Below, piece by piece: positions 11,892 through 50,422 of a stretch of DNA of 64,000 nt. Source of the DNA: Shewanella baltica (GTDB taxonomy: Bacteria; Pseudomonadota; Gammaproteobacteria; Enterobacterales; Shewanellaceae); NCBI RefSeq assembly GCF_900456975.1, contig NZ_UGYM01000002.1:1612001-1676000 (forward strand), in the 5' to 3' direction. The position numbers were made by a program, and so were the translations under genes. Position 1 is the stretch's first letter. Every line of letters begins with the position of its first letter. Below the pieces are notes generated by a model. It was given only the letters and a program-made list of their open reading frames with translations, ran no database searches and was not told where the DNA came from.

Positions 11892-11968
11892 CGGTATGTA
11901 GCGCAGCCCGGTAGCGCACTGTCATGGGGTGTCAGGGGTCGGAGGTTCGAATCCTCTCATACCGACCA
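11892..11968 (+). tRNA. tRNA-Pro (anticodon GGG)
   Basis: The 77-nt gene folds as a cloverleaf. The acceptor stem is CGGTATG/CATACCG, the D arm contains GCGCAGCCCGGTAGCGC, the anticodon loop is ATGGGGT with GGG at 34-36, the T arm contains GGTTCGAATCC, and CCA is encoded. The sequence follows the E. coli proL pattern, including the U-U mismatch in the anticodon stem. Its 3' end from 11922 is duplicated at 50372, so this is the integration site of the 38-kb element; the gene is kept intact by the element's own copy. Confidence 0.96.
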
Positions 11969-11972
11969 AATT
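11922..11972. repeat. attL core (51-bp direct repeat, left copy)
   Basis: This is identical to 50372-50422 base for base, starting TCATGGGGTGTCAGG and ending CGACCAAATT. It covers the tRNA-Pro anticodon loop, T arm, acceptor 3' strand and CCA. Sequence on both outer sides differs, fixing the repeat limits. Confidence 0.95.
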
Positions 11973-11978
11973 CATAAA

Positions 11979-12018
11979 CAAAAAAGCCTGCAATCTTAAT
12001 CAGTTGCGGGCTTTTTTG
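11979..12018 (+). terminator. Terminator just inside attL, after tRNA-Pro
   Basis: The stem AAAAAAGCCTGCAA / TTGCGGGCTTTTTT ends tRNA transcription and shields the element's left end. It may also work for the integrase transcript from the other strand. Confidence 0.85.
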
Positions 12019-12051
12019 TGTCTATAATTTGGCTTTTTACTGCTTAGAGGT

Positions 12052-12081
12052 GGTGAAACTGTGGTGAAATGGGGGTGAAAC
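12052..12081. promoter_or_regulatory. Candidate integrase arm-binding sites (3 x GGTGAAAY)
   Basis: The octamer GGTGAAA(C/T) occurs at 12052, 12063 and 12074, exactly 11 bp apart, between the att core and the int gene. Phased short direct repeats in this position are typical of arm-type sites bound by the integrase N-terminal domain. That they bind Int is inferred. Confidence 0.5.
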
Positions 12082-12128
12082 GGGTTTCAGAATTACAGTG
12101 GTCAAGTGCGCTGGTTGCATTAGTTTTA

Positions 12129-20267: not shown

Positions 20268-20993
20268 TCACACAATAACTGAATACCAGAAAACTCTACC
20301 GATTATTTCTACTGATTCAGCAGGCTTGTCCTCGGGCTCATATTCATCACTATTAAAACTCAAAATATTTAGCTTATCTGGTGAAGAACGGCGAAGTACT
20401 TTAATGCGTTTCCATCCATTCTCATTGATGGCATAAATTTTCCCATCAACAATCTTTTTATCGTTTGTATTTACAGCAACAGTTGTTCCATCAGGTATGT
20501 ATGGCTCCATGCTGTTTCCTCTGGCAGGGAAACAAATCACTCCAGAACCATCCGTATTAGCTCCAACTTTACGTAGAGTTGATTTAGAGAACCTTAGCTT
20601 GAAGCCATTGTAATCCTCATCATTAAAGGTTCCATCACCACAGGCAAATTCAACGTCTCGTAAGAATGGCACTTCAACTTCGTCACTATTAATTGGGGTT
20701 GAATCATCCCAAGCTTCAAGGGTACCCCATTCTGATTTATCAGGAATCTGTTGTTGTTTGTTTGAGAGTTCACCCAACCTCATGGGTTCGTGCCCATTGA
20801 GAAGCCATTCAGGACTCACTCTCAAAACTTTCGCAATTTCATAAAGCTTTCTGGTGTTTTTAGTTTTACCTGTTGTTAGTTTCCAGACGCTTGGTTGCGC
20901 CATGCCTATAGCCTCACCTAGTGATGCTTGAGTGTAACCAGCCTCATCCATGGCCGTTCTTAATCTATCCGCAAAAGATTCATTTTTATTCAT
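20268..20993 (-). CDS. Phage CI-type repressor (HTH + S24/LexA peptidase)
   Basis: The 241-residue protein has an N-terminal XRE helix-turn-helix (TQASLGEAIGMAQPSVWKLTTGKTKN, about residues 20-45) and a C-terminal LexA-type autopeptidase domain. The catalytic serine is in ARGNSMEPYIPDG (about residue 166) and the general-base lysine lies in the KRIKVL segment. A likely self-cleavage bond is Cys-Gly in EFACGDGT (about residue 117). It should hold the element quiescent and be inactivated by RecA during SOS. The gene diverges from the cro-like gene, with three operator sites in between. Confidence 0.92.
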   Translation of the reverse strand: MNKNESFADRLRTAMDEAGYTQASLGEAIGMAQPSVWKLTTGKTKNTRKLYEIAKVLRVSPEWLLNGHEPMRLGELSNKQQQIPDKSEWGTLEAWDDSTPINSDEVEVPFLRDVEFACGDGTFNDEDYNGFKLRFSKSTLRKVGANTDGSGVICFPARGNSMEPYIPDGTTVAVNTNDKKIVDGKIYAINENGWKRIKVLRRSSPDKLNILSFNSDEYEPEDKPAESVEIIGRVFWYSVIV

Positions 20994-21004
20994 AAGTGAA
21001 ATTT

Positions 21005-21067
21005 ATAGCCATAGTTATATCTCGTCAAATATCTAAAGCTATTTACATTGGCAATACCTTTGGCTAT
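21005..21067. promoter_or_regulatory. Three repressor/Cro operator sites
   Basis: Fourteen-base palindrome-like sites ATAGCCATAGTTAT (21005), ATATCTAAAGCTAT (21029) and ATACCTTTGGCTAT (21054) match ATAGCTNNAGCTAT or its complement at 11 to 13 of 14 positions. They are spaced 24 and 25 bp start to start, as the lambda OR sites are. They lie between the divergent cI-like and cro-like starts. The consensus was built from these and the two sites at 18.0-18.2 kb. Confidence 0.7.
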
Positions 21068-21100
21068 TATTTGGTTAATTTAAATGAGTGGAGGTATTTT

Positions 21101-21331
21101 ATGGCTGTAAAAGCTATTGCACAGGCTATAAATGTATTAGGAAGTCAGCAGAAACTTGCTGATGCCTGCAACGTAAAGCAGCCATCAGTTTGTGCATGGC
21201 TTCATGGCCGGAAAAAAGTTTCAGCAGAAAATGCGAAACGAATTGAAAAGGCAACTCATGGAGCCGTTCCTGCATACAAGATCCGCCCTGACTTGGTCGA
21301 TTTATTTCCACATCCAAATGAAGCTGCGTAA
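21101..21331 (+). CDS. Cro/YdaS-like HTH regulator
   Basis: The 76-residue protein has the helix-turn-helix LADACNVKQPSVCAWLHGRKKVSAENAKRIEKAT, typical of YdaS/Cro family proteins encoded first in the rightward early operon (Pfam YdaS_antitoxin type). ATG 21101 follows GGAGGTATTTT; a longer frame from 20996 would run through the operators and is rejected. It should repress cI-like and modulate early transcription through the sites at 21005-21067. Confidence 0.88.
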   Translation: MAVKAIAQAINVLGSQQKLADACNVKQPSVCAWLHGRKKVSAENAKRIEKATHGAVPAYKIRPDLVDLFPHPNEAA

Positions 21332-21359
21332 TCACTTCATGCTTAATAGTGGTAACTAT

Positions 21360-21665
21360 ATGAAAATATTTATCTTTATTCATCAAATACTCTCAGTTAT
21401 TCGTCAGTTTTATGCTGATGTGCGAAAGCATGAAGTAGGTATGCATTCAGGAACCATGTCTAAACAGATCTTTGCACTCTTTAGCAAAGTTAAATCTGAA
21501 AATGACAATGGTTGCTTACAGCTACGTGATGCAACTTATTTTGTTCACACCATAGGCAACCACTTGAATTTAAAAGCGACTCTATCAGACCGTCAATACT
21601 ACCAATCCAAACTCATTTGTACTTCCTACAACTGTAAATTAACAGAGAGAGGCTTATTAGCATGA
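21360..21665 (+). CDS. Hypothetical early protein between cro-like and ydaT-like genes
   Basis: The likely product from ATG 21360 is 101 residues (MKIFIFIHQILSVIRQFYADVRKHEVGMHSG...). An ATG at 21339 is also possible. The stop overlaps the next ATG (GCATGA), indicating coupling. It occupies the cII position but has no recognisable CII helix-turn-helix. Function is unknown. Confidence 0.5.
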   Translation: MKIFIFIHQILSVIRQFYADVRKHEVGMHSGTMSKQIFALFSKVKSENDNGCLQLRDATYFVHTIGNHLNLKATLSDRQYYQSKLICTSYNCKLTERGLLA

Positions 21666-22285
21666 AAACCCATTCACGAAAAAAAGATAGCCGTTTGAAT
21701 TTGTTGATGAAAACGATTCATCGGGTGTTGGAGTTACCCAAGATGACGCGCTTTGCGCTGGCGATTGATTTTGTTGCGGCAGTTGAGCGCCTTGGGCTGA
21801 GTGAGGTATTAGCGGCGGAGGGCATTAGCTTTGCGAGCACGCAAGACGTGCACAACGATGCGCGAATTAATGCCCAAAAGCTGTTCCGTTGGCTTGGCCA
21901 GTACGAGGGCCAACATCCGCAGGCGGATCGCTTGTTTCATGTTGAGCAAGCACTGGTGGCGGCATTGCCCGAGCAATTGCGAGTGCAGTATCTCAACGAT
22001 GTATTTGGCTGCACTGGGGTGACGGTAATAGCGGACCGCATGAATGATGGCCATGTGCTGCATGTGGCCGATATGGCGGCATCGTTAACCAAAGAGAACG
22101 CCGAGGCGCAAGTGGCGGTGATCCATTTGGGTCCGGCGCCGAAGCGCGAGCAGTTAGTGGCGGCGCACCGCGAGTTAAAAGAGTCGGCGGCAACCACGCA
22201 AGCGAGTATGGCAGCGTTAGAGCTGGCGTATCCGTATTTAGCGAGTCATGGCGGTAAGGCGGCGCAATACGCGGCCGAGAAGTGA
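21662..22285 (+). CDS. YdaT-like phage regulator
   Basis: The region INAQKLFRWLGQYEGQHPQADRLFHVEQALVAALPEQLRVQYLNDVFG (about residues 69-116) follows the YdaT pattern of the E. coli Rac prophage ('NTQKIFRW...' then a predicted helix with 'ALP'). YdaT follows YdaS there too; it has been described as a CII-like regulator and as a toxin to cells when expressed alone. The 207-residue protein has an additional Ala-rich C-terminal helix (QLVAAHRELKESAATTQASMAAL). It is translationally coupled to both neighbours. Confidence 0.6.
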   Translation: MKTHSRKKDSRLNLLMKTIHRVLELPKMTRFALAIDFVAAVERLGLSEVLAAEGISFASTQDVHNDARINAQKLFRWLGQYEGQHPQADRLFHVEQALVAALPEQLRVQYLNDVFGCTGVTVIADRMNDGHVLHVADMAASLTKENAEAQVAVIHLGPAPKREQLVAAHRELKESAATTQASMAALELAYPYLASHGGKAAQYAAEK

Positions 22286-23655: not shown

Positions 23656-24513
23656 ATGAGCATGGAATTGATGGTAAAAGCGATGAAGGCCAAGGTGGGT
23701 AATCCACTGCGCAAGCTGGTGTTGATCAAGCTTGCTGATAACGCCAATGACCAAGGCGAATGCTGGCCGAGTTACGAGTATATTTCGCAGGCTTGTGAGA
23801 TAAGCGAGCGGTCGGCGATTAACCACATTAATGCGCTGGTTGACGTCGGACTGGTGCGCAAAATTACCCGCAAGAGTGAGCATAAACGCAATACATCTAA
23901 CCTGTATATTTTGGACTTTTCATCGTGTGTTCTGAGTGATAAACCTGCTCAAACCCTACCTTTTACTGAGGGTGCAGCAAATTCACCCCTAGAAAATACT
24001 CAGGGTGCAGCATATTCACCCCTAGAAAATATTGGGGGTGCGGCAGATTCACCCCTAGCCAATTTTGAGGGTGCAGCAAATGCACCCATGGGTGCAGGAG
24101 ATTCACCCTCTGAGGGTGCAGGAGCTGCACCCAGAATCTGTCACTCTTTTGAACCTATCAATGAATCTTTAAAAGACTCTTGTCCAGCAACGAGTGCTAA
24201 GTCGGTTTTCAATGCGTTTTTCAAAGCCTATCCCGCCCATCGCAAAGGCGGCTCGGATTCGGCTGCGTGGAAAGCGTGGAAGGCCGAAAAGCTGACCGAC
24301 GCCGATTGTGTGTTGGCGGTGACGTGGTTGAAGGAGGCTGCGGCGCTGGATACGAGTTGGGGCTTTAGCGCGAACGGCCAGTTTGTGCTCGGTATTACCA
24401 AGTTTATCCGCGAACGCCACTGGCTAACACCGTTGCCAAGACCAATGGCCGCGGCAGTTGGGCAAGTGGATTGGAGTTATGCGGTGTATGACCCAGAGGA
24501 CCCCTTGATATGA
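23656..24513 (+). CDS. Lambda O-like replication initiator
   Basis: This 285-residue protein has an N-terminal winged-helix domain of the phage replication O / helix_turn_helix type (LIKLADNANDQGECWPSYEYISQACEISERSAINHINALVDVGLVRKI, about residues 25-72). A middle linker built of repeated GAAxSP units (residues 106-155) is encoded by an iteron array. The C-terminal domain (FFKAYPAHRKGGSDSAAWKAWKAEKLTDADCVLAVTWLKEA...FVLGITKFIRERHW) is typical of phage replication proteins. It overlaps the P-like gene by 4 bp. It should recognise its own origin and recruit the helicase through the P-like partner. Confidence 0.85.
   Translation: MSMELMVKAMKAKVGNPLRKLVLIKLADNANDQGECWPSYEYISQACEISERSAINHINALVDVGLVRKITRKSEHKRNTSNLYILDFSSCVLSDKPAQTLPFTEGAANSPLENTQGAAYSPLENIGGAADSPLANFEGAANAPMGAGDSPSEGAGAAPRICHSFEPINESLKDSCPATSAKSVFNAFFKAYPAHRKGGSDSAAWKAWKAEKLTDADCVLAVTWLKEAAALDTSWGFSANGQFVLGITKFIRERHWLTPLPRPMAAAVGQVDWSYAVYDPEDPLI
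23970..24132. repeat. Iteron array, probable replication origin inside the O-like gene
   Basis: Six copies of a 19-bp partly palindromic sequence, consensus GGGTGCAGNANATTCACCC, begin at 23970, 24003, 24036, 24069, 24090 and 24114. The first four are exactly 33 bp apart and the last two are compressed. Lambda has its iterons at the same place, between the DNA-binding and C-terminal domains of O. Confidence 0.8.
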
Positions 24514-36351: not shown

Positions 36352-36353
36352 AT

Positions 36354-36454: not shown

Positions 36455-36478
36455 CTTAGTGAGTAGGTGCTCCGAACT

Positions 36479-36868: not shown

Positions 36869-36880
36869 GCCTAGAGAATT

Positions 36881-37328: not shown

Positions 37329-37340
37329 GCATGGATTAGC

Positions 37341-37790: not shown

Positions 37791-37796
37791 CGATAA

Positions 37797-38192: not shown

Positions 38193-38204
38193 TTCAGGAC
38201 AGTC

Positions 38205-38639: not shown

Positions 38640-38702
38640 TAATACGCATCACTTGCGGCCTGCGACCGCTGCGCCTCGTCGCCAGTGTGCTTTGCGTTAG
38701 GA
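38634..38702 (+). repeat. attC of cassette 17
   Basis: The left core ACATAAT (38634) is one base from the complement of GTTATGT (38186). The right core is GTTAGGA (38696). Confidence 0.72.
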
Positions 38703-38713
38703 TCCTTTGCTAT

Positions 38714-39022
38714 ATGCCACTCATAAGAATCAATTTACTGTTACTGTTCAGCTTATTGGCAACAATAGTATTACTGGTTGCTGCTTTTTTTTCTTACGAT
38801 TTAGCGCATGGAAATTTATGGCGTTTTTTATCATGGCCTGCTCATAAGGCTCGCATCTGGAATGGCGGCATCGTGCTCCAATCAATAACTGACTTCATAT
38901 TCACAAAGCACAGCCAAGGCAATGTACATATCGCAGAAGCCTTGATATTAATTTTTACGTGGTGGCCAGTAACATTTGCAGCCATGTACTTTACATTCCG
39001 AACCAAGCGTACAGGCCCCTAA
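38714..39022 (+). CDS. Cassette 18: small membrane protein
   Basis: From ATG 38714 the 102-residue protein has an N-terminal hydrophobic helix (INLLLLFSLLATIVLLVAAFF, about residues 5-25) and a second near the C-terminus (AEALILIFTWWPVTFAAMYF), with a loop containing HKARIWNGGIVLQSITDFIF. It probably spans the inner membrane twice. Its function is unknown. Confidence 0.68.
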   Translation: MPLIRINLLLLFSLLATIVLLVAAFFSYDLAHGNLWRFLSWPAHKARIWNGGIVLQSITDFIFTKHSQGNVHIAEALILIFTWWPVTFAAMYFTFRTKRTGP

Positions 39023-39087
39023 CTAGTGGTTCAAATCGCTCGCTTCGTTCACTGGGATGAGCCCCGCCCCTTAACCAAATGTTAGGT
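39017..39087 (+). repeat. attC of cassette 18
   Basis: The left core CCCTAAC (39017) differs by one base from the complement of GTTAGGA (38696). The right core is GTTAGGT (39081). No complementary ACCTAAC follows downstream, so the next cassette has lost its right end. Confidence 0.72.
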
Positions 39088-39179: not shown

Positions 39180-40655
39180 CTCATAATGGGGCAGAAGTGA
39201 ACTAAAGCAGCCAGTCGAATCTGTTTGCATCGTGATTTGAATATTGGCAGGTTAAGTCACTAATCCAGTTCAATCGTGTGTTCAGTTCGACCTGTTCTTA
39301 GACCACTATTTTCACCTTCATACGTGTCACCCGATAACATTACGCTTCATGCCCTGTCGTCAGCTTTAACCAATCCCAATACACATAATGAGCCGTGGGC
39401 AGTAATGCACTAATGCCGGTGATCGATGATGGCCGGTACGTAAGCGTGTTGTTCCTATGTTCCTGCCGCGTGTTAACACTGCAAGTGTGTCTGCTAATTT
39501 TATGCTGGCTAATTGCTTGTTGGGATAAAGGGATGGATAGGGCCGATGCCTAGCATTAATGTGCATGTTTACGTTTGTAAGCGGCTTTACCTGCAGGTGC
39601 GTTAGTCGTTCAGGCATTTACTCATGTCTGTGGGTGAAGCCGGCAATGTTAGGGCAGATATAGGCGTGTTGTGTGACGATGACGAGGGAGAATACCGCAC
39701 GTTTCCTTAGGTTAATTTGTTACTAATATGTTTTATTTATATAGGTCCATTACACCATTAGGGTTCAACAGTGCTTCGATGCGGCCTAGATAATCCCTAG
39801 ATCCCCTCAAAAAGTTGGGAGCACTCAAACCCATGCAGCAGTAGGGCTACAGGCGAGTCGTTGCATCAACCCTACAGGAGGATGCAACGGCTCGCTTTTG
39901 TTGCTGTTGTGTTAACGCTTGAAGGGCGTAAAGGGTAGGGTAAAAGGTGAGTTTTTTGGCAGTTCTGGGTGAATTGATGGCGCCTAAATGGATCCTTCTA
40001 TTCGGCTCACTGTTTCGGTCGCGGCCTCATCCTGCGAAGGCGTTATCAGCTCCCCGTTTTTAGTCATCGAAAGCAGGTGAACTGGGATGATCTGCACACT
40101 GTTTCTGGGTGATTGAACGCGTTTTTAGGCTCATGCTGCCTTAATCTGAATTGTTAGTGATATGTTTCTATTCAATAGGTGTTGTTCAGTGTCTTGCACC
40201 AATATGGTTCAACCGTTTTTTGATGCGGCCTAGATAATCCCTAGATAGCCTCAAAAAGTTGGGAGCACTCTAGCCCATGCAGCAGTAAGGCTACAGACGA
40301 GTCATTGCATCAACCCTAAGGAAGGATGCAATAGCGTGCATTTGTTGCTTTGGTGTTAAATGATGGCAATGGGGTGAAGAGGGTAAAAGCCAAGGTTTTA
40401 AACGGTTTTAGACGGTTTTAGGTGAATTGCTTCTGTCTAGGACTAGGCTCATTTTAACCGAGTGCCAGACTCGTTATCTTTACCTATATTAGTCATCCTG
40501 CATGGATAGGAATGGAGCGATGATCATGTGCAATTATGAGGAATTTTGATTTTCAGATGGGCGGATTTTGTGTCTCGCTGATGCTCACGGTTTGATTGAA
40601 ACCGAACGCGACACTTTATGATGATGAGAATCGCTCTCAACTCGATGTAGATGCG
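39180..40655. other. Gene-free region with two diverged copies of a 0.4-kb unit
   Basis: No frame here has gene-like features. A unit of about 430 bp at 39707-40138 is followed directly by a second, diverged copy (40139 to about 40530). The best-conserved block begins GCGGCCTAGATAATCCCTAG and ends in a hairpin. The region leads into the cos-like site, so it may be a remnant of the phage DNA once located between the lysis genes and cos. Confidence 0.55.
39853..39899 (+). terminator. Hairpin with T tail in repeat unit 1
   Basis: The 15-bp stem GCGAGTCGTTGCATC / GATGCAACGGCTCGC (one G-U pair) is followed by TTTT. The second unit keeps only the inner part of the stem (ATTGCATC / GATGCAAT, about 40309-40330). 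Confidence 0.65.
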
Positions 40656-40668
40656 AACCATTATCATC

Positions 40669-40710
40669 GCGGGTCCTTCCGGCGCGGTTGATTGCGGGGG
40701 CGGCGACACG
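40669..40710 (+). other. Lambda-type cos-like packaging site
   Basis: GCGGGTCCTTCCGGCG (40669-40684) contains the heptamer GGGTCCT known as the core of lambda cosQ. Fourteen bases on comes CGGGGGCGGCGACACG (40695-40710), which matches the lambda cosN cohesive-end region GGGCGGCGACCT in the first 10 of 12 bases. Distance cosQ to cosN is 27 bp here and 30 bp in lambda. The orientation agrees with rightward O-P-Q. No Nu1-type binding sites or terminase gene are seen to the right. Confidence 0.65.
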
Positions 40711-40739
40711 CAGTGCTTCACTACATATGAGGATTTTAG

Positions 40740-41612
40740 AGGGCTTGGTTGTTGTTTTATTAACGGGCTTTTAGGGGGCGTTCATAATTTTGAACGCTAT
40801 TTATGGCGTTGATTTTATTTGCTTATTATTCCTATTTCCTCAGGAGTTCAAAAAATAGGTGTGCTCTGATATACCAACTTCAACAGATCGATTTTGTGAT
40901 CCTTTGATCTTTGTTGAATGGGCCGATATTTTGCGTCTCTTGGTAAGCGAGTCACTATAAAGCGGAGAACAGGGAGGGGAGAAACCTACCTTTAGTTTGA
41001 ACACATCTGAGTGCCACCACCTAGGCATAGCGTTTCGTTCTAGCTTTATCCCAAAATCACTTAACTGATAACTAAATCATTCCAAATTTACTCACCGGTT
41101 AGTGCTGTATGTCATGACTGTTATTTTATGCAGTACTTAATCAATGCTTGCCACTGCAAAAAGCTCGCACTAATCAACTTGCAATCAAACAAACCATTGG
41201 TGGTATTGGCGAGTCCTTTGATTAAGGAGGACTGTTTGTGGTCATGTCCGCAATGCCAGCTAGGTCATTTGCAGTTTATTAGGCTGATAAGACCACAGGG
41301 ACTAGTGATGATTAACACTTAAAGTACTGCTAGTACGCATGTCAGGATAACCACTCCCTCAAGATGTAGCGTAATGACCGACAGCGAGAAGCAGCCAGCC
41401 TTATGGGGTTAGGGTGTGAGTGGCAGCCTGAATGTGGGCCCCAATGCTGTCAGCCAAGGTCAATAATTAGACGAAAATGAGCGTGGCAGAATGAGAAAGC
41501 TAAAACGATATCAAGTGATTACCCATCAAACTGTATAAAAAATCGCTACCGCAAAAAGGAAAATTCCTATAGCATCATTTATACCCATTTACACGGATGT
41601 GGCAGCGGCCAA
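40740..41612. other. Gene-poor region right of the cos-like site
   Basis: I see no well-supported gene. A 64-codon frame at 41128-41322 ends in LWSCPQCQLGHLQFIRLIRPQGL, which could be the C-terminal tail of a decayed transposase, but it has no ribosome site and is short. The terminase genes expected here in a lambdoid phage are absent. Confidence 0.45.
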
Positions 41613-41671
41613 GTCCAACAAGCGATTTATGCCCTGCAAACAGCGCAGCGCATAAATACTAAGACGTTATA
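41613..41671 (+). repeat. attC-like site upstream of cassette at 41.7 kb
   Basis: GTCCAAC (41613) and GTTATAT (41665) flank the perfect arms ATTTATGC / GCATAAAT. The partner left end of the preceding cassette is not found, which fits a deletion between 39.1 and 41.6 kb. Confidence 0.72.
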
Positions 41672-41687: not shown

Positions 41688-42044
41688 ATGAATAACGAAG
41701 CATTTGTTAATCTAATCAAAAAGCATTCTCGAGACTTTACTATTGATTGGGCTGAGGGAGATAACTCTGGTGTTACTAAAGAGGCTCAAGATTGGCAATC
41801 CAGTTTGTCCATTCAAGAGAAAGCTTTCTTACGAGAGATCGTTACTGAGGCATTAGATAATGGCATTGTTAATCTGCTTGAGATTATGGATGGAGTTCAC
41901 CCAGATAACTCTTGTCCCATAGAGGCGAGTGCAGGTAACAATAAAATTTCAGGCCAAGGATGTAAGCAACTTCATGACTTATATGCAGGCAAAATAGAAC
42001 AAGTGGAAGCATGCTCGCCCTTTGGGCTGGACCTCAGGCAATAG
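41688..42044 (+). CDS. Cassette: hypothetical acidic protein, 118 residues
   Basis: The protein MNNEAFVNLIKKHSRDFTIDWAEGDNSGVTKEAQDWQSSLSIQEKAFLREIVTEALDNGIVNLLEIMDGVHPDNSCPIEASAGNNKISGQGCKQLHDLYAGKI is hydrophilic and helical. Internal stretches (SIQEKAFLREIVTEALDNGI, then LLEIMDG) resemble the DUF2247/barstar-like small proteins loosely; I make no family call. It is framed by attC-like sites on both sides. Confidence 0.65.
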   Translation: MNNEAFVNLIKKHSRDFTIDWAEGDNSGVTKEAQDWQSSLSIQEKAFLREIVTEALDNGIVNLLEIMDGVHPDNSCPIEASAGNNKISGQGCKQLHDLYAGKIEQVEACSPFGLDLRQ

Positions 42045-42074
42045 TCACCTACGGCCTATGCTGCGGCGTTAACA
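41994..42074 (+). repeat. attC (partly decayed) of the 41.7-kb cassette
   Basis: The left core ATAGAAC (41994) is one base off the complement of GTTATAT (41665). The right core is GTTAACA (42068). Confidence 0.62.
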
Positions 42075-42102
42075 TTCGAAGAGAACATCAAAGGAAATAT
42101 AA

Positions 42103-42909
42103 ATGCCTCGAGTTTTGCTTTGCATATTGCTTCTCCTCTCTTTCAGCTCAAGCGCCATCGTGATTCGACACGACGTTGACGACTTAAAGTATCGAATTCA
42201 GGCTGCAGAGTTTCCAGCTCTCGCTGACATGCCTGTTGAGGGGCATGGCGTATTAATTGCGTCGCAATGGATTGTAACCGCCGCTCATGCGATCACATGG
42301 CAACCTGAAATCAAACAAATTATGGTGGGCGGTCTCCCCAGAGCCGTTGAGCGTATTGAGATACATCCTGGTTATAAAGCGCCCCCCAAACAACTACTCG
42401 AACAAGCACTGGTGACTTGGGATTGGACGCTGTTCAGGGTTCTACTCGCTTCATCGGATGATATCGCTCTGGTGAAATTAGCAAAGCCCATTACCGATGT
42501 CGCACCTGTGTCTATTTTTAGTAGCAATAGCGAGTTCGGACAAGTCGCTAAAATTATCGGAAAAGGCGCCACAGGGAATGGCGTGAGTGGCTATGAATTC
42601 AGCGCCCCTCATCGCACTGAAATACGCCAAGCCTTCAACAAAATCACCAGCGCGAATGGCCGCTGGCTCTGTTATCTGTTTGACAATTCTACAGAGTCTT
42701 TAGCACTTGAAGGAGGTTCTGGGAGTGGCGATAGTGGTGGTCCAGTCTTGATTGAGGGTAAAACCGAGTGGCAATTAGCCGGTCTTGCTTCTTGGACTGA
42801 TGCGCAAAGTGCCAACAGAACACTTGGGCAATATGGTCAGATCACTTGTAATGTCCGGTTAAGTCATTACCAAAAATGGATACAAGGCCTCATATCTGTA
42901 CAACTGTAA
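42103..42909 (+). CDS. Cassette: secreted trypsin-like serine protease (S1)
   Basis: The 268-residue protein begins with a signal peptide (MPRVLLCILLLLSFSSSA). The chymotrypsin-fold catalytic triad is complete: His in WIVTAAHAI (about residue 64), Asp in ASSDDIALVKLAKPI (about residue 125) and Ser in GGSGSGDSGGPVL (about residue 211). It should act in the periplasm or be secreted. The typical RIVNG activation site is replaced by SSAIVIRHDVDD, so the mature N-terminus may form by signal cleavage. It follows an attC right core by 29 bp, while its own right attC is decayed. Confidence 0.9.
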   Translation: MPRVLLCILLLLSFSSSAIVIRHDVDDLKYRIQAAEFPALADMPVEGHGVLIASQWIVTAAHAITWQPEIKQIMVGGLPRAVERIEIHPGYKAPPKQLLEQALVTWDWTLFRVLLASSDDIALVKLAKPITDVAPVSIFSSNSEFGQVAKIIGKGATGNGVSGYEFSAPHRTEIRQAFNKITSANGRWLCYLFDNSTESLALEGGSGSGDSGGPVLIEGKTEWQLAGLASWTDAQSANRTLGQYGQITCNVRLSHYQKWIQGLISVQL

Positions 42910-42966
42910 CATAATGCTGGCTACAAACGACAGCACACGGCTATAAAACAGATAGGAAGCATCGAT

Positions 42967-43347
42967 GTGAATCATTTGTATAGAGTTGTTCCTAAAGAAG
43001 ATTGGGTTGAGGCTCAGCGTTGCGGGCGTGTCCCTCGATGTCAGGCAGATAAACGGCGGGGCAGAGTTCATCTGAACGAATTGAAGGATGTGGAGCTTGT
43101 CGCGAACAGATGGTTTTCTGTTGAGGAAGATCCTGTCGTTCTTGAGATTGATGTTTCTGGGGTGGCGGAATATCTGAAATGGGAGGAGAGGACTGAGGAG
43201 CCTTTGGGTACCTGGCCAAATCTCTATGTTGAGGGCGTACCAGTTGAGAATGTGGTTCGAGCTTTTGCGTTAGACGCAAGGCCAGATGACGAAGGTGCTG
43301 TCTCGTTTCGGATTGGAAAAGCTCTGTCTGAGGAGTCTGTATTCTAA
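42967..43347 (+). CDS. DUF952-like protein
   Basis: The 126-residue protein follows the DUF952 pattern: LYRVVPKEDWVEAQRCGRVPRCQADKRRGRVHLNELKDVELVANRWF (the family reads 'iyri...eW..a...G......D...GfiHls...q'), then VVLEIDVSGVAEYLKWEERTEEPLGTWPNLYVEGVPVENVVRA (family 'l.Ll.id...l...l.we.......fPHlYg.l....V'). The fold is related to ADP-ribosyl-binding enzymes; function is uncharacterised. Codon use and GC are higher than in the flanking cassettes. The stop is at a TTCTAAC core-like sequence, but no right core was found. Confidence 0.7.
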   Translation: MNHLYRVVPKEDWVEAQRCGRVPRCQADKRRGRVHLNELKDVELVANRWFSVEEDPVVLEIDVSGVAEYLKWEERTEEPLGTWPNLYVEGVPVENVVRAFALDARPDDEGAVSFRIGKALSEESVF

Positions 43348-44036: not shown

Positions 44037-44052
44037 CTGTATATAAAAACAG
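44037..44052 (+). promoter_or_regulatory. LexA (SOS) box upstream of umuDC
   Basis: CTGTATATAAAAACAG is a near-perfect LexA operator (consensus CTGTATATATATACAG, 14 of 16) ending 12 bp before the umuD ATG at 44064. Confidence 0.92.
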
Positions 44053-44063
44053 TGGTGTTGACT

Positions 44064-44471
44064 ATGCGTATTATCCCTATCTATGCCAGTGCCGGTATCA
44101 CCGGCTTCGAAAGCCCTGCAGCTGAATATAGTCAGCTGGGTCTCAGCCTTGATGAGTTGTTAGTTGTGCATCCTAGCGCGACTTTTATTGGTGTCGCAAA
44201 AGGTGACTCAATGCAGGGCGTGGGCATTTTTTATGGCGATATATTGATTGTTGACCGTCAGGAAACTGCGCGTCATGGTGATGTGATTGTTGCCAATTTC
44301 AACGGTGAATTTGTATGTAAAATCCTCGATAAAACGCATCGCATGCTGCTGTCATCGAATGAACAGCACCTACCTCAGCCTATTCATGATTACGATAACT
44401 TTACCATTGAAGGTGTTGTTATTCGTTCTGTTCGTTGTCATCGCCAAAGTCCATTATTAGCGGATATCTGA
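44064..44471 (+). CDS. umuD: UmuD-type SOS mutagenesis protein
   Basis: The 135-residue UmuD-like S24 peptidase has catalytic Ser49 (GVAKGDSMQG) and Lys86 (GEFVCKIL), separated by 37 residues exactly as Ser60/Lys97 in E. coli. Autocleavage yields UmuD', the accessory subunit of DNA polymerase V. The cleavage region reads ASAGITGFESPAAEY: the bond aligned with E. coli Cys24-Gly25 is Thr13-Gly14, while Ala10-Gly11 is a canonical pair three residues earlier. It is SOS-controlled and overlaps umuC by one base (TGATG). Confidence 0.93.
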   Translation: MRIIPIYASAGITGFESPAAEYSQLGLSLDELLVVHPSATFIGVAKGDSMQGVGIFYGDILIVDRQETARHGDVIVANFNGEFVCKILDKTHRMLLSSNEQHLPQPIHDYDNFTIEGVVIRSVRCHRQSPLLADI

Positions 44472-45727
44472 TGTTTGCCTTGGTTGACGCCAACAGTTTT
44501 TATTGCAGTGCCGAGCAGGTATTTAGACCTGATTGGCGTGGTAAGCCAATGATTGTGTTGAGCAACAATGATGGCTGCATCGTAGCGGCAAACAAGCAAG
44601 CGAAAGAACGGGGTGTTCCTAAGTTTGCGCCATACTTTCAAGTCAAAGACCTGTGTACGAAATTAGGTGTCATTGTTTGTTCAAGTAACTATGAACTCTA
44701 TGCCGATTTATCTGCAAAGATGATGAATATCATTGGCCGATTTGCACCAGAGCAGCATGTCTATTCCATTGATGAAAGCTTTCTCTCCTTTAAAAATTGT
44801 TATCCCGCCATTAAGTGCTTACAAACCCAAGGCCAGTTGATTCGAAAAGCGGTTTGGAAAGAGACACGTTTACCGGTTTGTGTCGGCATAGGCTCAACAC
44901 TTACACTGGCTAAAGCGGCCAATCACGCGGCAAAGAAGTTACCTGGCTATCAGGGTGTGTGTGTTATTGATAATGAACAAGACAGGATTTCAATTTTACA
45001 ATCAATGAATGTGAATGATGTCTGGGGCATTGGGCGCAGGATAAGCAAAAAACTTGAATTGATGAACGTCAAGACCGCCTATGACTTAGCCAAAATCCCT
45101 GCAGGTTTAGCGCGGAAGCAATTTAGTATTGAAATAGAACGCACTGTGCGTGAACTTAATGGGCAAGCGTGCAAAGTGTGGGACGAGGCGAGGGCGGATA
45201 AGAAACAAATATTCTCAACTCGTAGTGTGGGCGAGCGTATTACCGAGTATGAAGATTTACTGCAAGCCTTAAGTAAACATGTGGCGATTGCTGCAGCGAA
45301 AGCGCGCAAGCAAGGTTCAAGCTGTAAAACCATGTTGTTGTTTGCTAGCAATTCTCCCTACGATGAACGCCCAACAGGCTTTAAGACCTTAGTGCACTTT
45401 GCTTGTGCCACCGATTGCAGCATTGAACTCACTCAAGGTATGACACAAGCAGCATCTCAACTTTTCCGTGCCGGTGTACGTTATTATAAAGTCGGTGTAG
45501 GTCTGATTGATTTGGTCAGCACCCAGCATGGCCAGTTAGATTTATTCAATGCTTCAAAAGCCAAACCAGCATTAATGAAGACTCTTGATGGCATTAATCA
45601 ACGTTATGGCACAGATACCTTATTCATTGCTGCCCAAGGTATCGAGCAAAAATGGGCCATGCGCCGTGATCTACTCACCCCACAGTACACCACCAATTGG
45701 TTAGATGTTCCCATCATTAACTGCTAA
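44471..45727 (+). CDS. umuC: UmuC-type Y-family DNA polymerase (Pol V catalytic subunit)
   Basis: The 418-residue translesion polymerase has the N-terminal MFALVDANSFYCSAEQVF (metal-binding Asp) and YSIDESFLSF (catalytic Asp-Glu, about residue 101) motifs. Palm and fingers are complete (VVLSNNDGCIVAANKQAKERGV-type), a helix-hairpin-helix region follows (VNDVWGIGRRISKKLELMNVKTAYDLAK), and the little-finger domain and C-terminus are intact. It forms Pol V with UmuD'2. Plasmid and element-borne homologues (RumB, ImpB, MucB) are common, and this copy is element-borne too. Confidence 0.95.
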   Translation: MFALVDANSFYCSAEQVFRPDWRGKPMIVLSNNDGCIVAANKQAKERGVPKFAPYFQVKDLCTKLGVIVCSSNYELYADLSAKMMNIIGRFAPEQHVYSIDESFLSFKNCYPAIKCLQTQGQLIRKAVWKETRLPVCVGIGSTLTLAKAANHAAKKLPGYQGVCVIDNEQDRISILQSMNVNDVWGIGRRISKKLELMNVKTAYDLAKIPAGLARKQFSIEIERTVRELNGQACKVWDEARADKKQIFSTRSVGERITEYEDLLQALSKHVAIAAAKARKQGSSCKTMLLFASNSPYDERPTGFKTLVHFACATDCSIELTQGMTQAASQLFRAGVRYYKVGVGLIDLVSTQHGQLDLFNASKAKPALMKTLDGINQRYGTDTLFIAAQGIEQKWAMRRDLLTPQYTTNWLDVPIINC

Positions 45728-45888
45728 ACATCTTTGTCATTCGCTAACTCCTATCAAACGGCTAGATAAGCATACAGTCGTATTCAAAATCTCAGTATTT
45801 AGAACGATTTTTATCCTCTACTCGTGCGTATTTACTCATTTCTTTTTAAAATAGCATTAAAATTAGTTAGTTATATCTTTTTTCAGTA

Positions 45889-46039
45889 GATAATAGGTTT
45901 GGGAAAAGTGCATGCACGTTTTTCCAGATAGAGTATTTGATAGAAAACTGATAAGTTCTTTACATACAGATAGTTAACTGTGCGCGTTTTCACTGCTCCA
46001 ACGAGATAAACACCTATGCGCATGAATAAAATATTAGCA
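45889..46039 (+). promoter_or_regulatory. Second attI-like site (attI'), no adjacent integrase
   Basis: This stretch is clearly homologous to the attI leader at about 28769-28919: GATAATAGGTTTGGGAAA, TTTTTCCAGAT, CTGATAAGTT, TGCGCGTTTT and AATAAAAT-TTAG occur in the same order and spacing. The palindrome is GTGCATGCAC here. The core reads ATTAGCA (46033) where attI has GTTAGGG. Its complement, TGCTAAC, occurs at 49942, closing the following cassette. Confidence 0.78.
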
Positions 46040-46099
46040 GAAAAATCAAAAGCTCGATCTTGGGTGTAATCTATGGGCCCTATAAAAATCGGAGAAAGA

Positions 46100-48205
46100 A
46101 TGAAAGAAGCAGTAGACGATACTCCTTATTTATCATCTCTACAGAGTTGTAATCGAGTTGCTAGAGAAGAATATACAGCCGTACAAGCTTATTTTGAGAG
46201 CTGCGATACCATTATTGAAGCTCTGAGAAAAAAACTGCAGGGCGTGATTGAACATGGCAGTAAGGCGCTATCCGAAAACAAAATGGTGGAGGATGGTCTG
46301 ACCAACATGCTGCAGGATCTTGAGAGAGACTATGGAAGGCTTCTCTCGAAACGAAACGCCAATCTCGCCAAGTTGAAACGAAGCCTAGATTGCTTCAATG
46401 TCATGCTCTTTGGCCGAACGATGGCTGGCAAGAGCACTATTCGTGAGGCTATCACTCGCGGGGATGGTCAGACCATTGGTAAAGGAGCGCAAAGAACTAC
46501 GCGCGACGTTAAAGAGTACGAATGGAACAACTTGAGGATAATCGACACCCCAGGCTTCGGAGCATATAACGGTCAAGAGGACACGCAGATTGCGCATGAG
46601 ATTCTTGAACAGTCAGACGTCGTGCTGTTCATGCTCAACAGCGACAGCATCCAAGAGTCAACCTTTATTGAGCTTGACTATGTTCATAAACTTAACAAGC
46701 CCTTGATCTTCGTTTTGAACATAAAAAAAGATCTAGAGAATGAAGGTAACCGGCGCCGGGCATTGAGGAGTCCAGAAAAATATATTTTTAAAGAAGAAGA
46801 TATTCAGGAGCATACTGACCGTTTAAACAACCTTGCCAGCCGTGCAGGCATAAATCCAAGCACAGTCCGAATCATCCCAATTCATGCCCAGGCCGCATTC
46901 TTGGCAACCGTCATGCCGGGGGAAGAAGGCTTACAATTACATGAGCTGAGCCGAATAGATCAGGTTCTTAATGCGCTCATTGATGAGGTTGAAGGTAACG
47001 GGCCGATCCGTAGGGTCCAGACGTTTCTCGATTCAAGCCTTCATCATGTTGAGGAACAGAGCTTGCTAATTTTAAGCCAAAGGGATCGGCTCACCAAGCT
47101 CTTGCAACAGTATGAAAGCGGTCTCACCCGTATTTACCAATGGAAGGTAAAAACTCTTCGTGATGCGCCGCGGTTGCTCTCTAAGGAAGTGGATGTTGCT
47201 TTTAAACCACTAGTTGACTCTGTTGCAGATTTTGTTGATGACCACATTGAGGATGAGAATGCAGCAGTAGCTTGGGAGCGTCATTACAAGAGTTTTAAAA
47301 TTACAAAAAAGGTAGAGCGATCGGTACAAGCTTTGGCAGAACAGGTGGTAGAAGAACTTCAAGATTTCAATCGAGAAATGAATGAGGGCTTGGAAATTAC
47401 CTTGTCTTTCGAGGTTGCTCACGATGGGCGGAACTTCAGTGAATTCGACTTCAAGCGTATAAACGGTTGGGGCTCCGCTATAGCTGGGGTTGTAACCGCA
47501 ATTGCCTTTTTTAACTCATGGAACCCTGTCGGCTGGGTGGCGGCTGGTGTCGGCATTTTGTTCACAATTTTTTCATTATTTTCCGATAGTCGTGCTAAGA
47601 AACTCAAAGAGGCTAAGTCTAAACAGCGTCAGGCTTTGCTTGAAGATATAGAGAAAAGTAAGCAAAAAATAAAAGCTAGTTTAGAAAGCTGGTTCGACAT
47701 AAGTATCTATCGAGCAGTTATTTTGCCTGTAGAACACAACCTATCTCTTCTCTGTCAAGCGCTTAATGGTTTTATAAGTGAGATGGATAGCACTGATAGT
47801 CAGCTCTATTCTCTAAGGCATGATATTAATTTTCGCCTACTTAATCGAGTTTCTTATATCATCAAAAAACAGCATTTTGTCATGCCGAAAGTGTTAAAGA
47901 TTGTGAGGCTTCCTGGCTATGCTTGTTATTTTCTGACCTCTGATTATTTTCGAGATTCTGAACTTCTTCGGGCTATGGGCAAAGCCATGAGAGAGAAAAT
48001 TATTTTAGTGTATGACACTAGCTTGGATAAAAAAATATCCCATCTTTATAGGGGGCTTGTAGAGAAAATCGAGCTTTCCGAAAAAGATAAAGTGTCCGTG
48101 TTTGCTCAGAAGCGAAATATTAGCAAGATCATTGGAAAAGACCACCGCCGAATAAAAATGGTGGCTGCACTTTGTTCCTGTGAAATTACCCTCATTCCCA
48201 TTTAA
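46100..48205 (+). CDS. Dynamin-like GTPase, LeoBC/Eleos-like (first gene)
   Basis: ATG 46100 follows CGGAGAAAGA; an upstream ATG at 46073 has no ribosome site. The 701-residue protein has a coiled N-terminal region (residues 10-95) and a dynamin-type G domain with P-loop FGRTMAGKST (about residue 105), switch II IIDTPGFGAYNG (about 150) and G4 NIKKD (about 206). A long helical stalk follows, then a hydrophobic hairpin (GSAIAGVVTAIAFFNSWNPVGWVAAGVGILFTIFSLF, about residues 455-490) that should insert into membrane, and a KH-like end IIGKDHRRIK. The pairing and sizes resemble LeoBC plus LeoA of the Eleos anti-phage system. This is family resemblance, not proof. Confidence 0.82.
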   Translation: MKEAVDDTPYLSSLQSCNRVAREEYTAVQAYFESCDTIIEALRKKLQGVIEHGSKALSENKMVEDGLTNMLQDLERDYGRLLSKRNANLAKLKRSLDCFNVMLFGRTMAGKSTIREAITRGDGQTIGKGAQRTTRDVKEYEWNNLRIIDTPGFGAYNGQEDTQIAHEILEQSDVVLFMLNSDSIQESTFIELDYVHKLNKPLIFVLNIKKDLENEGNRRRALRSPEKYIFKEEDIQEHTDRLNNLASRAGINPSTVRIIPIHAQAAFLATVMPGEEGLQLHELSRIDQVLNALIDEVEGNGPIRRVQTFLDSSLHHVEEQSLLILSQRDRLTKLLQQYESGLTRIYQWKVKTLRDAPRLLSKEVDVAFKPLVDSVADFVDDHIEDENAAVAWERHYKSFKITKKVERSVQALAEQVVEELQDFNREMNEGLEITLSFEVAHDGRNFSEFDFKRINGWGSAIAGVVTAIAFFNSWNPVGWVAAGVGILFTIFSLFSDSRAKKLKEAKSKQRQALLEDIEKSKQKIKASLESWFDISIYRAVILPVEHNLSLLCQALNGFISEMDSTDSQLYSLRHDINFRLLNRVSYIIKKQHFVMPKVLKIVRLPGYACYFLTSDYFRDSELLRAMGKAMREKIILVYDTSLDKKISHLYRGLVEKIELSEKDKVSVFAQKRNISKIIGKDHRRIKMVAALCSCEITLIPI

Positions 48206-48214
48206 GGATGAATC

Positions 48215-49924
48215 ATGACTGAAATTGGTTACAGTGCTCTCAAAGAAAAGGTAGCAAGCCTTTACCAGCGTTCTAATGAGCTATGGAACGCTAGCAACTT
48301 CAAGGCATCGGAGGCAGAGTTTGATATTCATGTAGCGCCTTTGAATCTTGTTTTTGCTGGCCAGTACAGTGCTGGTAAGTCCTCCTTAATTAAAATGTTG
48401 ACAGGTATTGAGCATATTAAGATAGGGGCTGGCGTAACAACAGATGTGGTCACTCAATACCAATATAAATCGATAAATATCTGGGATACCCCTGGTATCC
48501 TTGCGGGTGAGTGCGAGCAACATGATGCAAAAGCGCTTGAGGCCATAGCGAAAGCAGACCTGCTGATTTACGTAATTACTAATGAACTGTTCGACGATAT
48601 CGTGGGTGCCGCCTTTCGCGATCTTTGTTTTATCCAAGGTCGCGCTAAGGAGATGATGATCGTTATCAACAAGTTTGAAAGTGACTCGGCTGACAAAGAG
48701 ACCAAGGTCGAGGGCATCACGCAGGTGCTTGAACCCAAAATTCCAGAGGACTTTCCCATCGTCTTCACTGACGCCCAGTCATTCTTCGATTCATTGGATG
48801 AGGAAGACGAGCAAGAGCGCAGAGAGTTATTGGCGCTTTCCAATGCTGAAGGGCTCACCAAAGCAATTGATGATTTTGTAGCGCAACGGGGTCTATACGC
48901 CAGACTGACGACGCCGCTCCAGCAGCTTCAAATCACGCTGGAATCAAAAATTGACGAACTGACCATATCTGATCCGTTGCAAAAGGGCTTGGTTAGCCTG
49001 CTCATGCAAAACAAGCGCGTTTTTCAAGCCAATAAACGAGACCTCATCAAAAAGGTCGGAGCGGACCTAGACAAGCTTAACGGCCAGATTGTTGAGCAAG
49101 GAAATCAGCTTGCCGATGCTTTGGGTGGAGAGCAGGAAGAATTTGAAAAGGTACAGGACAGTTCAACATATGAATGTGAACGACTCATAAACTCTGCCTT
49201 GGAAGATCTGCAGGTCACTGTGAGCGAATGCCTATCAGATCTTGAGGCTGAGTTAGTCGAGTTAGCGAATACTCCTGCTAGTTTGAAGATAAATGAAGCT
49301 TTGGATACTGCAAAGAATTTCAATCCTGATGCTGAAAATGGGAAAGTCGGCAGCTTCTCCAAGGATGATCCCGTGAAGCTTAACAGTGCCATCAGCCAGA
49401 GTATGACGAAATCCGCAGAAAAAGGATTCTCCTTCCTTGCAAAAAGTGCTGTTGGCGATGCATCTAAAACAGGACTCAAATCAGTATCGGGTAGTACTCT
49501 ACACAGTGCTATTAAAGAGGTTGGCGGCTTTTTTGGCTACAAGTTCAAGGCTTGGGAGGCCGTGAAAATAGCGGACAAAATAGGTAAGGGCGCGAGATTT
49601 CTAGGTCCAGCCATGGCGATTTTTGGGGTTGGTATGCAGATGTATGACGACTATCAGCAGTCCGAGCATGCAAAAATGATTCTTAAAATAAAGCGGGATA
49701 TTCGCAAAAGCTTCAAAGAGTACAGTGATGACGTGCGTAAGAGTATCGACGCCCAGCTCGAGAAACTACTTGATACCGGCTTTGATCTGCCTATTACGAA
49801 TATCGATGAGGCCCTTCAAGAAATACGTTCACAGGCTGAGGGTAAGTCAGATAGCGTTAATGCGCTGCGCTTGCAACTAGAAGGTGTAGTCATGCTTCGC
49901 GAAGAAATACAATCATTATATTGA
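48215..49924 (+). CDS. Dynamin-like GTPase, LeoA/Eleos-like (second gene)
   Basis: The 569-residue protein is close in length to LeoA of enterotoxigenic E. coli (about 571). Its G domain has P-loop VFAGQYSAGKSSLIKMLTG (about residues 46-64), switch I around GAGVTTDVV, switch II IWDTPGIL (about residue 90) and G4 VINKFESD (about residue 149). A long helical bundle follows with coiled-coil stretches, and a hydrophobic hairpin-like segment (AVKIADKIGKGARFLGPAMAIFGVGMQMYDDY, about residues 450-480) probably contacts membrane. It lies 10 bp after the first GTPase, so the two are one operon. Membrane remodelling on infection is the family-level guess. Confidence 0.82.
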   Translation: MTEIGYSALKEKVASLYQRSNELWNASNFKASEAEFDIHVAPLNLVFAGQYSAGKSSLIKMLTGIEHIKIGAGVTTDVVTQYQYKSINIWDTPGILAGECEQHDAKALEAIAKADLLIYVITNELFDDIVGAAFRDLCFIQGRAKEMMIVINKFESDSADKETKVEGITQVLEPKIPEDFPIVFTDAQSFFDSLDEEDEQERRELLALSNAEGLTKAIDDFVAQRGLYARLTTPLQQLQITLESKIDELTISDPLQKGLVSLLMQNKRVFQANKRDLIKKVGADLDKLNGQIVEQGNQLADALGGEQEEFEKVQDSSTYECERLINSALEDLQVTVSECLSDLEAELVELANTPASLKINEALDTAKNFNPDAENGKVGSFSKDDPVKLNSAISQSMTKSAEKGFSFLAKSAVGDASKTGLKSVSGSTLHSAIKEVGGFFGYKFKAWEAVKIADKIGKGARFLGPAMAIFGVGMQMYDDYQQSEHAKMILKIKRDIRKSFKEYSDDVRKSIDAQLEKLLDTGFDLPITNIDEALQEIRSQAEGKSDSVNALRLQLEGVVMLREEIQSLY

Positions 49925-49941
49925 GCTAATGCTGCGAGGTC

Positions 49942-50013
49942 TGCTAACAAAGCGCTGCTGTCGGACAAATTATTCGCTGCACTGCAAATTTGTCGCAGCG
50001 CGCGGCGTTAGCT
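49942..50013 (+). repeat. attC closing the dynamin-like GTPase cassette
   Basis: The left core TGCTAAC (49942) is the complement of TTAGCA at the attI' junction (46034). The right core is GTTAGCT (50007). Arms GACAAATT / AATTTGTC and GCGCTGC / GCAGCGC fold into an attC hairpin. The two cores delimit a cassette of about 3.97 kb. Confidence 0.85.
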
Positions 50014-50371
50014 ATTTCAATACCAACATTTTCAGTTCGAGATTGCCGACTGGCGCTTATCTGTGATGGTATGAATAAGTTCATTAAACTCATCGCAATG
50101 CATGTGGACTCGTTTGATTCTGAAAAATGACCATATTATCGTCGAATTAATAATGCTGTAGTGGTTGTTCCAAGAATAAAGAAACGCATTAGAATTACTA
50201 GGAAGAAATTTACTCTATAATTAGGGGACTAACTCTTTGTAAGTCTATGAAAACAAAGAGTGCAAAAAACGCAAACTAGGTTTAAAATAGGCATTGTCCT
50301 AGGCTAATTTTTGTAGGGTATTTTTAGTTAAATTCTTTAGCATCAATGGTTTAAGGTTTTTTAAAGGTCAA
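50014..50371. other. Gene-free right end of the element
   Basis: AT-rich sequence between the last attC and attR. The cassette opened by GTTAGCT at 50007 has no closing AGCTAAC, so it is truncated. No arm-type GGTGAAA repeats like those at attL are seen. Confidence 0.55.
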
Positions 50372-50422
50372 TCATGGGGTGTCAGGGGTCGGAGGTTCGA
50401 ATCCTCTCATACCGACCAAATT
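50372..50422. repeat. attR core (51-bp direct repeat, right copy)
   Basis: Exact copy of 11922-11972. It is only the 3' part of the tRNA-Pro sequence, without acceptor 5' strand or D arm, so no second tRNA gene is present. Confidence 0.95.

Follow-up and report, generated by a model that had tools for sequence, protein, structure and literature searches.

Introduction

Integrons are usually thought to move by means of transposons or conjugation. Here, we describe an element of Shewanella baltica that carries a complete integron and that is probably, though by no means surely, a lambdoid phage without late genes, persisting as a full-length, cos-carrying satellite (a natural cosmid) that is moved by a helper phage. 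It lies between two repeats in the stretch of 64,000 nucleotides analysed here (the window; positions 1612001-1676000 of a 5.29-Mb contig in a 5.30-Mb genome, labelled G000).

Several described systems resemble this locus in part. The closest is the Shewanella prophage vB_SspM_M16-3, for which excerpts of its description (PMC9892861) report a complete integron and a cluster of attC sites lacking an integron integrase (CALIN), each with an attI; it resembles our element in its related IntI, the same attI 28-mer, a second attI and an annotated LexA site at intI. However, M16-3 belongs to the Peduoviridae and is described there with genes for tail, scaffold and terminase, and a megablast search of the early half of the window against the phage collection gave no match. 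An earlier sequence-only reading of the window had held that a phage-satellite-like vehicle for an integron would be unusual. A Shewanella prophage with a complete integron plus second attI is already on record in M16-3, whereas the late-gene-free lineage with a cos site is new. The defective lambdoid prophages of Escherichia coli O157 Sakai, as described in part of PMC2669165, lack head or packaging genes that co-resident prophages complement, and are induced, packaged and partly transferred; those findings are experimental and the defects vary by prophage, whereas here a fixed architecture without late genes, with cos kept and cargo swapped, is known from sequence.

Satellites offer a second comparison. 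Gram-negative phage-inducible chromosomal islands (PICIs) such as EcCICFT073 likewise have a lambda-like cosN and are packed by lambdoid helpers in full-size heads (excerpts of PMC6092414). According to these excerpts, they have about one third of the helper size and carry AlpA and Pri-Rep, whereas our element has full length with cI, cro, cII, O and P. It measures 38.45 kb against 43.0 kb for p3, a prophage of the same chromosome, and neither AlpA nor Pri-Rep families were found in the Pfam scan, which covered 27 element open reading frames (ORFs; among 30 scanned) and 24 array ORFs, small ORFs in part; a lambda-P-type gene is present instead. The part of PMC13376191 on phage satellites gives them a small genome of 7-20 kb, which the element exceeds. 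Among the general marks of a satellite, an integrase with att sites, the absence of virion structural genes and a packaging site shared with a candidate helper are present, and mobilisation by that helper is predicted. Finally, Shewanella genomes often carry lone cassettes at a distance from intI (PMC9229058; 115 single attC sites lacking an integron integrase, SALINs), and the passages of that paper on SALINs and CALINs contain no mention of dispersed attI before cassettes or of differing cassettes at orthologous copies, both of which are described below. Among the literature matches listed, there was no description of a late-gene-free, cos-bearing lambdoid lineage or of dispersed attI.

Results

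Loss of the late genes at tRNA-Pro

The repeats that bound the element are exact over 51 bp, with 38,450 bp between copies, and form the longest exact direct repeat in the window, the next one (48 bp) being two attC-like sites. ARAGORN placed a tRNA-Pro(GGG) at 11892-11968, and the left repeat is its 3' part plus four bases, which bears out the boundaries given in the sequence-only reading. The relatives of the window are Shewanella, S. oncorhynchi S-1 being one known by name. Among the 129 Shewanella genomes that were searchable (117 in the search with Int), Int matched 10/117 at E 1e-20, G000 included, three of the ten only partially. In G082, G015 and G002, Int is 75-95% identical and the 51-bp core, whose absence in such relatives had been named beforehand as the finding to speak against the element, is mismatch-free at both ends.

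Two of these relatives, G082 and G015 (Int 95% identical), hold prophages of 41.2 and 43.8 kb at the same tRNA, with the order int, early genes, cI, cII, O, P, TYR422 (a second tyrosine recombinase), the Q-position gene, late genes, umuDC, about 235 bp and attR. The late part of G082 (20 ORFs; best 25 of 61 families) contains terminase, portal, head protease, major tail, tape-measure and tail PHROGs. The interval between the end of Q and umuD measures 25.3 kb (G082) or 27.0 kb (G015), vs 16.8 kb of other DNA in the window. From this gene order and interval we conclude that the late genes are absent from the window and that umuDC is ancestral; 25-27 kb of late genes have evidently been replaced, and the integron occupies the emptied space, as had been proposed from the letters alone. 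When the 20 late-region ORFs of G082 were compared with each element (tblastn, 1e-5), none (0/20) matched the window element, which thus has no late operon with terminase, portal, capsid and tail, and the 24 ORFs between 28924 and 44003 gave PHROG matches to acetyltransferases only. Late genes elsewhere between the repeats were also considered and rejected, since none was found by the same search or the PHROG scan. The earlier view that terminase, capsid and tail genes are missing stands. Of the sequence-only interpretation, the att boundaries, the phage ancestry, the loss of the late half, the integron in its place and a satellite-like vehicle are all supported.

Both kinds of relative named for comparison, those with late genes and those with an empty tRNA-Pro site, were found. 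G097, G127, G024 and G117 have a single att core in the fetched stretch and a LysR gene 3.0-4.7 kb further on, which marks a prophage-free site; this LysR gene also flanks the window element. The assignment of umuDC to the integron has to be given up, because these genes belong to the ancestral phage, lying beside attR in G082 and G015 and occurring in p2 (below) as well. Most other gene calls held: int, cI, cro, cII and P are backed by families and O by position and HTH_36, whereas Q is called by position only. The Q-position gene belongs to the function-less PHROG 27007, and a functional name is given to 0/22 of the homologues found. The xis-like ORF (13319-13558) had no family match in Pfam or PHROG, and its identity as xis is possible. 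The anatomy of the element, as collected in Table 1, is firm.

Table 1. Features of the element, in window coordinates.
Feature	Position	Strand	Remarks
attL core, 51 bp	11922..11972	+	3' part of tRNA-Pro(GGG)
Lambda-Int-like integrase, 394 aa	12129..13313	-	PHROG integrase E 6.7e-26; weak match to solved lambda Int
Left early block of small phage ORFs	13319..20049	-	Ea22-like 16317-17072; PapB-like regulator 15380-15724; HipA-like kinase 19288-20049
cI-like repressor	20268..20993	-	S24 peptidase domain
cro-like and cII-like genes	20996..22285	+	Cro-like 20996-21331; CII-like 21662-22285
Replication genes O and P	23656..25193	+	O: position and HTH_36; P 24510-25193: Pfam Phage_lambda_P
TYR422, second tyrosine recombinase	25408..26676	+	between P and Q
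Q-position gene, 123 aa	26918..27289	+	position only
Integron integrase IntI	27659..28618	-	aligns from residue 5 to end with solved integron integrase IntI4 (2a3v), E 3.5e-83
LexA box of intI	28639..28654
attI1	28768..28919	+	copy of dispersed attI family
Main cassette array	28924..39087	+	about 16-18 attC-like sites by eye (29244 to 39087)
IS91-like unit	29245..31589	-	Y2 transposase and tyrosine recombinase; splits attC of cassette 1
2.5-kb block without convincing genes	39189..41669	+	common to other elements without late genes; attI-like terminus at end
cos block	40613..40764	+	cosQ/cosN pattern at 40671-40712
Further cargo	41688..43347	+	118-aa ORF, trypsin-like protein, 126-aa ORF
umuD and umuC	44037..45727	+	phage-derived; LexA box at 44037
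Second insertion	45735..50187	+	attI2 45761-46035; LeoBC/LeoA-like dynamin pair 46073-49924; attC 49942-50013
Phage right end and attR core	50188..50422	+	attR core 50372-50422

A lineage without late genes

Beyond the window, TYR422 has three more copies in G000, at 99%, 67% and, distantly, 31% identity. The 99% copy lies in p2 (C2:2526134-2571084), an element of 44.9 kb bounded by a 16-bp repeat, whose early stretches match the window mostly at 94-96%, with one at 88%. Its integrase differs, the window Int having no match there, and its 26 kb of cargo include a TonB receptor, PepSY, HipA, TIR, SEFIR, LysR, group II intron parts and two IS91-like units, followed by umuDC that is 95% identical to that of the window. 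No virion parts were seen among the best 25 of 50 PHROG families (24 proteins). A further element without late genes, G002-C23, sits at tRNA-Pro, measures 40.6 kb, lacks umuDC and carries a chemotaxis receptor, motAB, BacA, TrkH and TerC. The IMG/VR record G129 has the same junction behind Q and 2.2 kb of this cargo in common with it, which argues against a misassembly of the G002 element. The 67% copy belongs to p3 (C2:3959678-4002738; 43.0 kb, 27-bp repeat), in which a 366-aa ORF beside the right repeat resembles a tyrosine recombinase by eye. Late-region ORFs of G082 are kept in p3, G002C3 and G015 (18/20 each) and G130 (17/20), vs 0/20 in each of the window element, p2 and G002-C23. The sizes between repeats are 38.5, 44.9 and 40.6 kb for the elements without late genes vs 41.2, 43.8 and 43.0 kb for phages with them. 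This plan thus recurs in two species and at two sites, combined with one or the other of two integrases, and the window element is, by these comparisons, evidently a member of a lineage without late genes.

TYR422 serves as a marker of this lineage. Among the 33 loci in the genus (E 1e-100), the three at 99-100% are the elements without late genes, and the other 30 show 52-73% identity. IMG/VR holds seven loci: four at 98-99%, with no terminase within the 0-4.5 kb of sequence after Q, and three at 68-73%, all with terminase and portal. The 98-100% allele is thus known from seven loci in all, none with a terminase in the sequence at hand. Two IMG genomes with the marker, matched by record number, additionally contain a 39-40-kb phage contig with cos; no terminase was seen in these two, whose loci end 364-1046 bases past cos. 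As side observations, TYR422 occurs in 28/129 genomes, a matching terminase in 28 and both in 26, and the gene seems to belong to the core set of the phage group; in another marker-bearing relative (L259), an attI-like terminus (window 41338-41670) follows about 130 bp past the shared end after Q. G069 was tried as a fourth such element and rejected, because its Q-like gene and two cos sites beside a GroEL-like ORF represent a remnant, as judged from ORFs only.

A cos site shared with phages that keep late genes

All three elements keep a stretch of 90-150 bp whose counterpart in the five compared phages with late genes (G082, G015, p3, G002C3, G130) is found 80-890 bp past Q. In comparison with fetched records, it reads as the parts of lambda and N15 named cosQ and cosN. 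Local alignment of the cos block with the cos junctions of lambda and N15 (110 bases) gave scores of 54.5 and 57.5, and none of 1014 other 150-base windows of the element, taken on both strands as controls, reached the cos score (best 30). Eight Shewanella cos blocks scored 33.5-54.5 against lambda and 53.5-70.5 against N15, all above controls. A GTTGTTGTTTTAT stretch after cosN, a possible part of cosB, is common to 8/8 Shewanella sequences and resembles N15. The likeness appeared only on direct comparison with the lambda and N15 ends: blastn of the cos block against 50,697 phage records gave no lambda-like match (best E 0.3), and the HK97 ends have no similarity to the element cos.

The position of cos relative to terminase is also regular. 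A degenerate cos pattern occurred at 14 places in 11/129 genomes (control pattern, 0), with a large terminase 2.7-4.7 kb downstream in 10/14, the other four being the three elements without late genes and the G069 remnant; seven of the 14 places were used to build the pattern, and six of the seven independent ones have a terminase. In IMG/VR, small and large terminase lie 2.2-3.6 kb behind cos in 11/19 pattern contigs; seven of the other eight hold just 283-2696 bp past cos, and G130, with 5 kb free of terminase, has one farther on. G000 and G002 each have one matching terminase (E 1e-40), located in the relative with late genes, and the cos block is present in both the element and p3 of the same chromosome, in similar, not identical form.

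The 2.5-kb block around cos was also considered as a cassette and rejected, because it is common to two elements without such an array there and contains phage-derived pieces. Two repeats in it, at 39786 and 40230, are similar to the TYR422 3' end found in other phages, and they are likelier degenerate gene copies than TYR422 target sites.

Selection on the retained phage genes

The frames of int, cI, cII, O and P are open. When the window was compared with p2, G002-C23 and G129, the ratio of nonsynonymous to synonymous substitution (dN/dS) was 0.02-0.025 for TYR422, 0-0.03 for the Q-position gene and 0.04-0.06 for cII and P; within the lineage, dS of the Q-position gene and TYR422 is 0.22-0.31. 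For umuD and umuC, dN/dS is 0.04 and 0.08 (window vs p2), and for O it is 0.10-0.11 against G002-C23 and G129. TYR422 and Q are the clean cases of selection because their alleles are seen in no phage with late genes.

The integron and its cargo

The sequence-only reading of a complete, SOS-responsive integron was correct in its components. IntI has a tyrosine-recombinase core and an IntI-specific region, aligns with 2a3v over nearly its whole length (Table 1) and shows the ALER motif named in PMC9229058; attI1 contains the Shewanella attI 28-mer published in PMC9892861, and an attC array follows. Perfect LexA boxes (CTGTN8ACAG) occur within the element only at intI and umuD, the former predicting SOS control of the integron. 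The earlier count of at least 17 cassettes is plausible from the attC-like sites seen by eye, yet it is not proven site by site, as seven array sites, plus the attC of the second insertion, reach a strict attC score that misses about half of the main array. IntI relatives (E 1e-40) occur in 83/129 genomes at varied places, many below 60% identity.

The IS91-like unit has three more full identical copies and one partial copy in the fetched G000 DNA, and in the three copies with inspected ends (window, two in p2) it enters directly after an attC-like TAACA. Such units were also seen at loci L175 and L180. In the second insertion, LeoBC and LeoA homologues are adjacent (E 2.4e-112 and 1.2e-124) and form a predicted defence pair, known so far as sequence. 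The pair makes up a single 3.9-kb cassette, and its first protein is 82-87% identical in named Halomonas, Stutzerimonas and Pseudomonas.

Dispersed attI sites

A second attI had been noted and is present between umuC and the phage right end, yet it is one of many dispersed copies. Where the attC of its cassette (TGCTAAC) implies a core of GTTAGCA, this attI has ATTAGCA; with the G lost, it may no longer be active. It is one of about 14 attI copies in the G000 chromosome: attI-region matches number 15 in G000 (one of only 44 bases) and 16, 17 and 10 in G024, G127 and G097, the four genomes with full counts, and at least one attI was found in 66/129 genomes when six candidates were scored in each. 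The dispersed sequence is 150-300 bp long and occurs in G000 at attI2 (L133) and 12 further places. Reportedly, earlier work dealt with non-classical attG sites.

Four observations characterize these copies. First, 3/66 fetched copies (at least 2.5 kb) adjoin intI, and 58/63 of the others have GTT at the expected junction, beyond which the sequence differs. Second, an ORF of at least 50 residues starts within 50 bp in 56/63 copies vs 423/1000 random genomic starts. Third, the 1.08 kb that follow contain an attC-like site in 13/63 copies vs 0/63 upstream controls. Fourth, 33 cross-genome pairs share the upstream flank (at least 400 matched bases) and 30/33 share nothing downstream, whereas in the remaining three 72, 232 and 1256 bases match; the 33 pairs, which fall in 14 places by our own grouping, are not independent of one another. 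As a control around tRNA-Pro in three of these genomes, 254 windows with a common upstream flank were compared, and only 3/254 had no downstream match. The same attI occurs in 20 plasmid records, 13 of Shewanella, and dfrA1, a FosG-type gene and others stand behind it in the four records inspected, whose incomplete gene tables name no integron integrase within 3 kb of attI, one listing another site-specific integrase. This comparative evidence, which is good, suggests that one integrase serves many docking sites in trans. On enterobacterial plasmids, a cassette-type gene stands behind this attI type in both such records inspected, namely a FosG-type gene in an IncC plasmid (L208) and dfrA1 in a Moellerella plasmid (L209).

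Discussion

In the mechanism that we propose, DNA damage would derepress the element, which would excise through Int and replicate through O and P. A relative that keeps late genes, with p3 as the candidate helper, would then supply the terminase to cut the concatemers at cos and the heads to take them up. The integron would travel as cargo, its LexA-controlled integrase being switched on by the same signal, and cargo in place of late genes would keep the genome near packaging length. Excision and replication alone, as envisaged in the sequence-only reading, would not move the element between cells, and cos with a helper is the likely missing piece.

Several points weigh against a cosmid-like satellite. 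No cosB with terminase-binding repeats was identified in the element. A conservation peak, as a sign of selection on cos, was looked for in the 2.5-kb block and not found, 36-48% of the 90-bp windows being equally conserved. Ungapped 50-mer cos scores of 28 and 29 of 50 are not significant alone, as an unrelated HK97 50-mer reaches 30; because this scoring is too weak alone, the cos claim rests on local alignment with controls and on position. In P and cII, the distance to p3 is about the same as that to the sister elements (dS 0.23-0.33), and O of the window and p2 are different alleles (dN/dS 0.49), from which we conclude that modules are exchanged among phages; the selection seen on P and cII may have taken place in intact phages. 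Moreover, three complete elements are known, all of one lineage, and four of the seven marker loci end 0-4.5 kb after Q.

The strongest alternative is a cryptic prophage in decay, from which late genes were deleted and into which insertion sequences and cassettes entered, early genes and cos being left for want of time. The missing late genes, the insertion sequence in the array and the lost core G of attI2 agree with it, as does the plain remnant in G069, where two cos sites in about 4 kb indicate that cos can outlive a prophage by chance; the integron-bearing M16-3 is itself called cryptic in PMC9892861. Decay does not, however, account for the common late-gene-free ancestry of elements that occupy two sites, occur in two species and have exchanged integrase and cargo, nor for dN/dS of about 0-0.03 in Q and TYR422, open int, cI, cII, O and P, and a kept genome length, and we regard it as rather unlikely. 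It is quite improbable that the integron was resident in the tRNA-Pro region and became enclosed by the prophage through a deletion between neighbouring elements. The int relics at the same tRNA in G060, G044 and G093 do have integron or IS91-like DNA in their neighbourhood, and beyond the attR of G015 there are attC-like matches at a distance of 1-3.5 kb, but the array is inside the repeats with p2-shared phage DNA on both sides (to 27542 and from 43544), and IntI relatives elsewhere sit at other loci. Among these relics, the intI of G060, about 8 kb away, is 92% identical. Least probable of all is that the element excises and replicates and then moves by recombination into intact relatives, general transduction or natural transformation, with no role for cos: the modules shared with p3 (P 99% at the amino acid level) show recombination among prophages to be active, but such routes do not explain why cos and a phage-like length persist in all three elements.

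In conclusion, what is new here is the full-length lineage without late genes but with cos, and the fact that it serves to carry an integron; that a Shewanella prophage can contain an integron was published before. More tentatively, and with reservations greater than those on the satellite itself, we propose that Shewanella carries a natural-cosmid lineage whose late half serves as loading space, one member of which ships an SOS-controlled integron into a genome with a dozen or more attI docking sites, so that a single integrase, delivered in a phage head, might swap cassettes at many chromosomal sites simultaneously. If this is true, the emptied late half would be a load bay, in which a satellite carries about 20 kb of foreign DNA, about the full length of the largest small satellites in the literature cited above, and a satellite would be able to move a complete integron. 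It also becomes testable whether 'defective' prophages can be a lasting state in their own right, and whether dispersed attI sites are targets of integron integrases in trans, which would make the single cassettes across a chromosome one exchangeable set.

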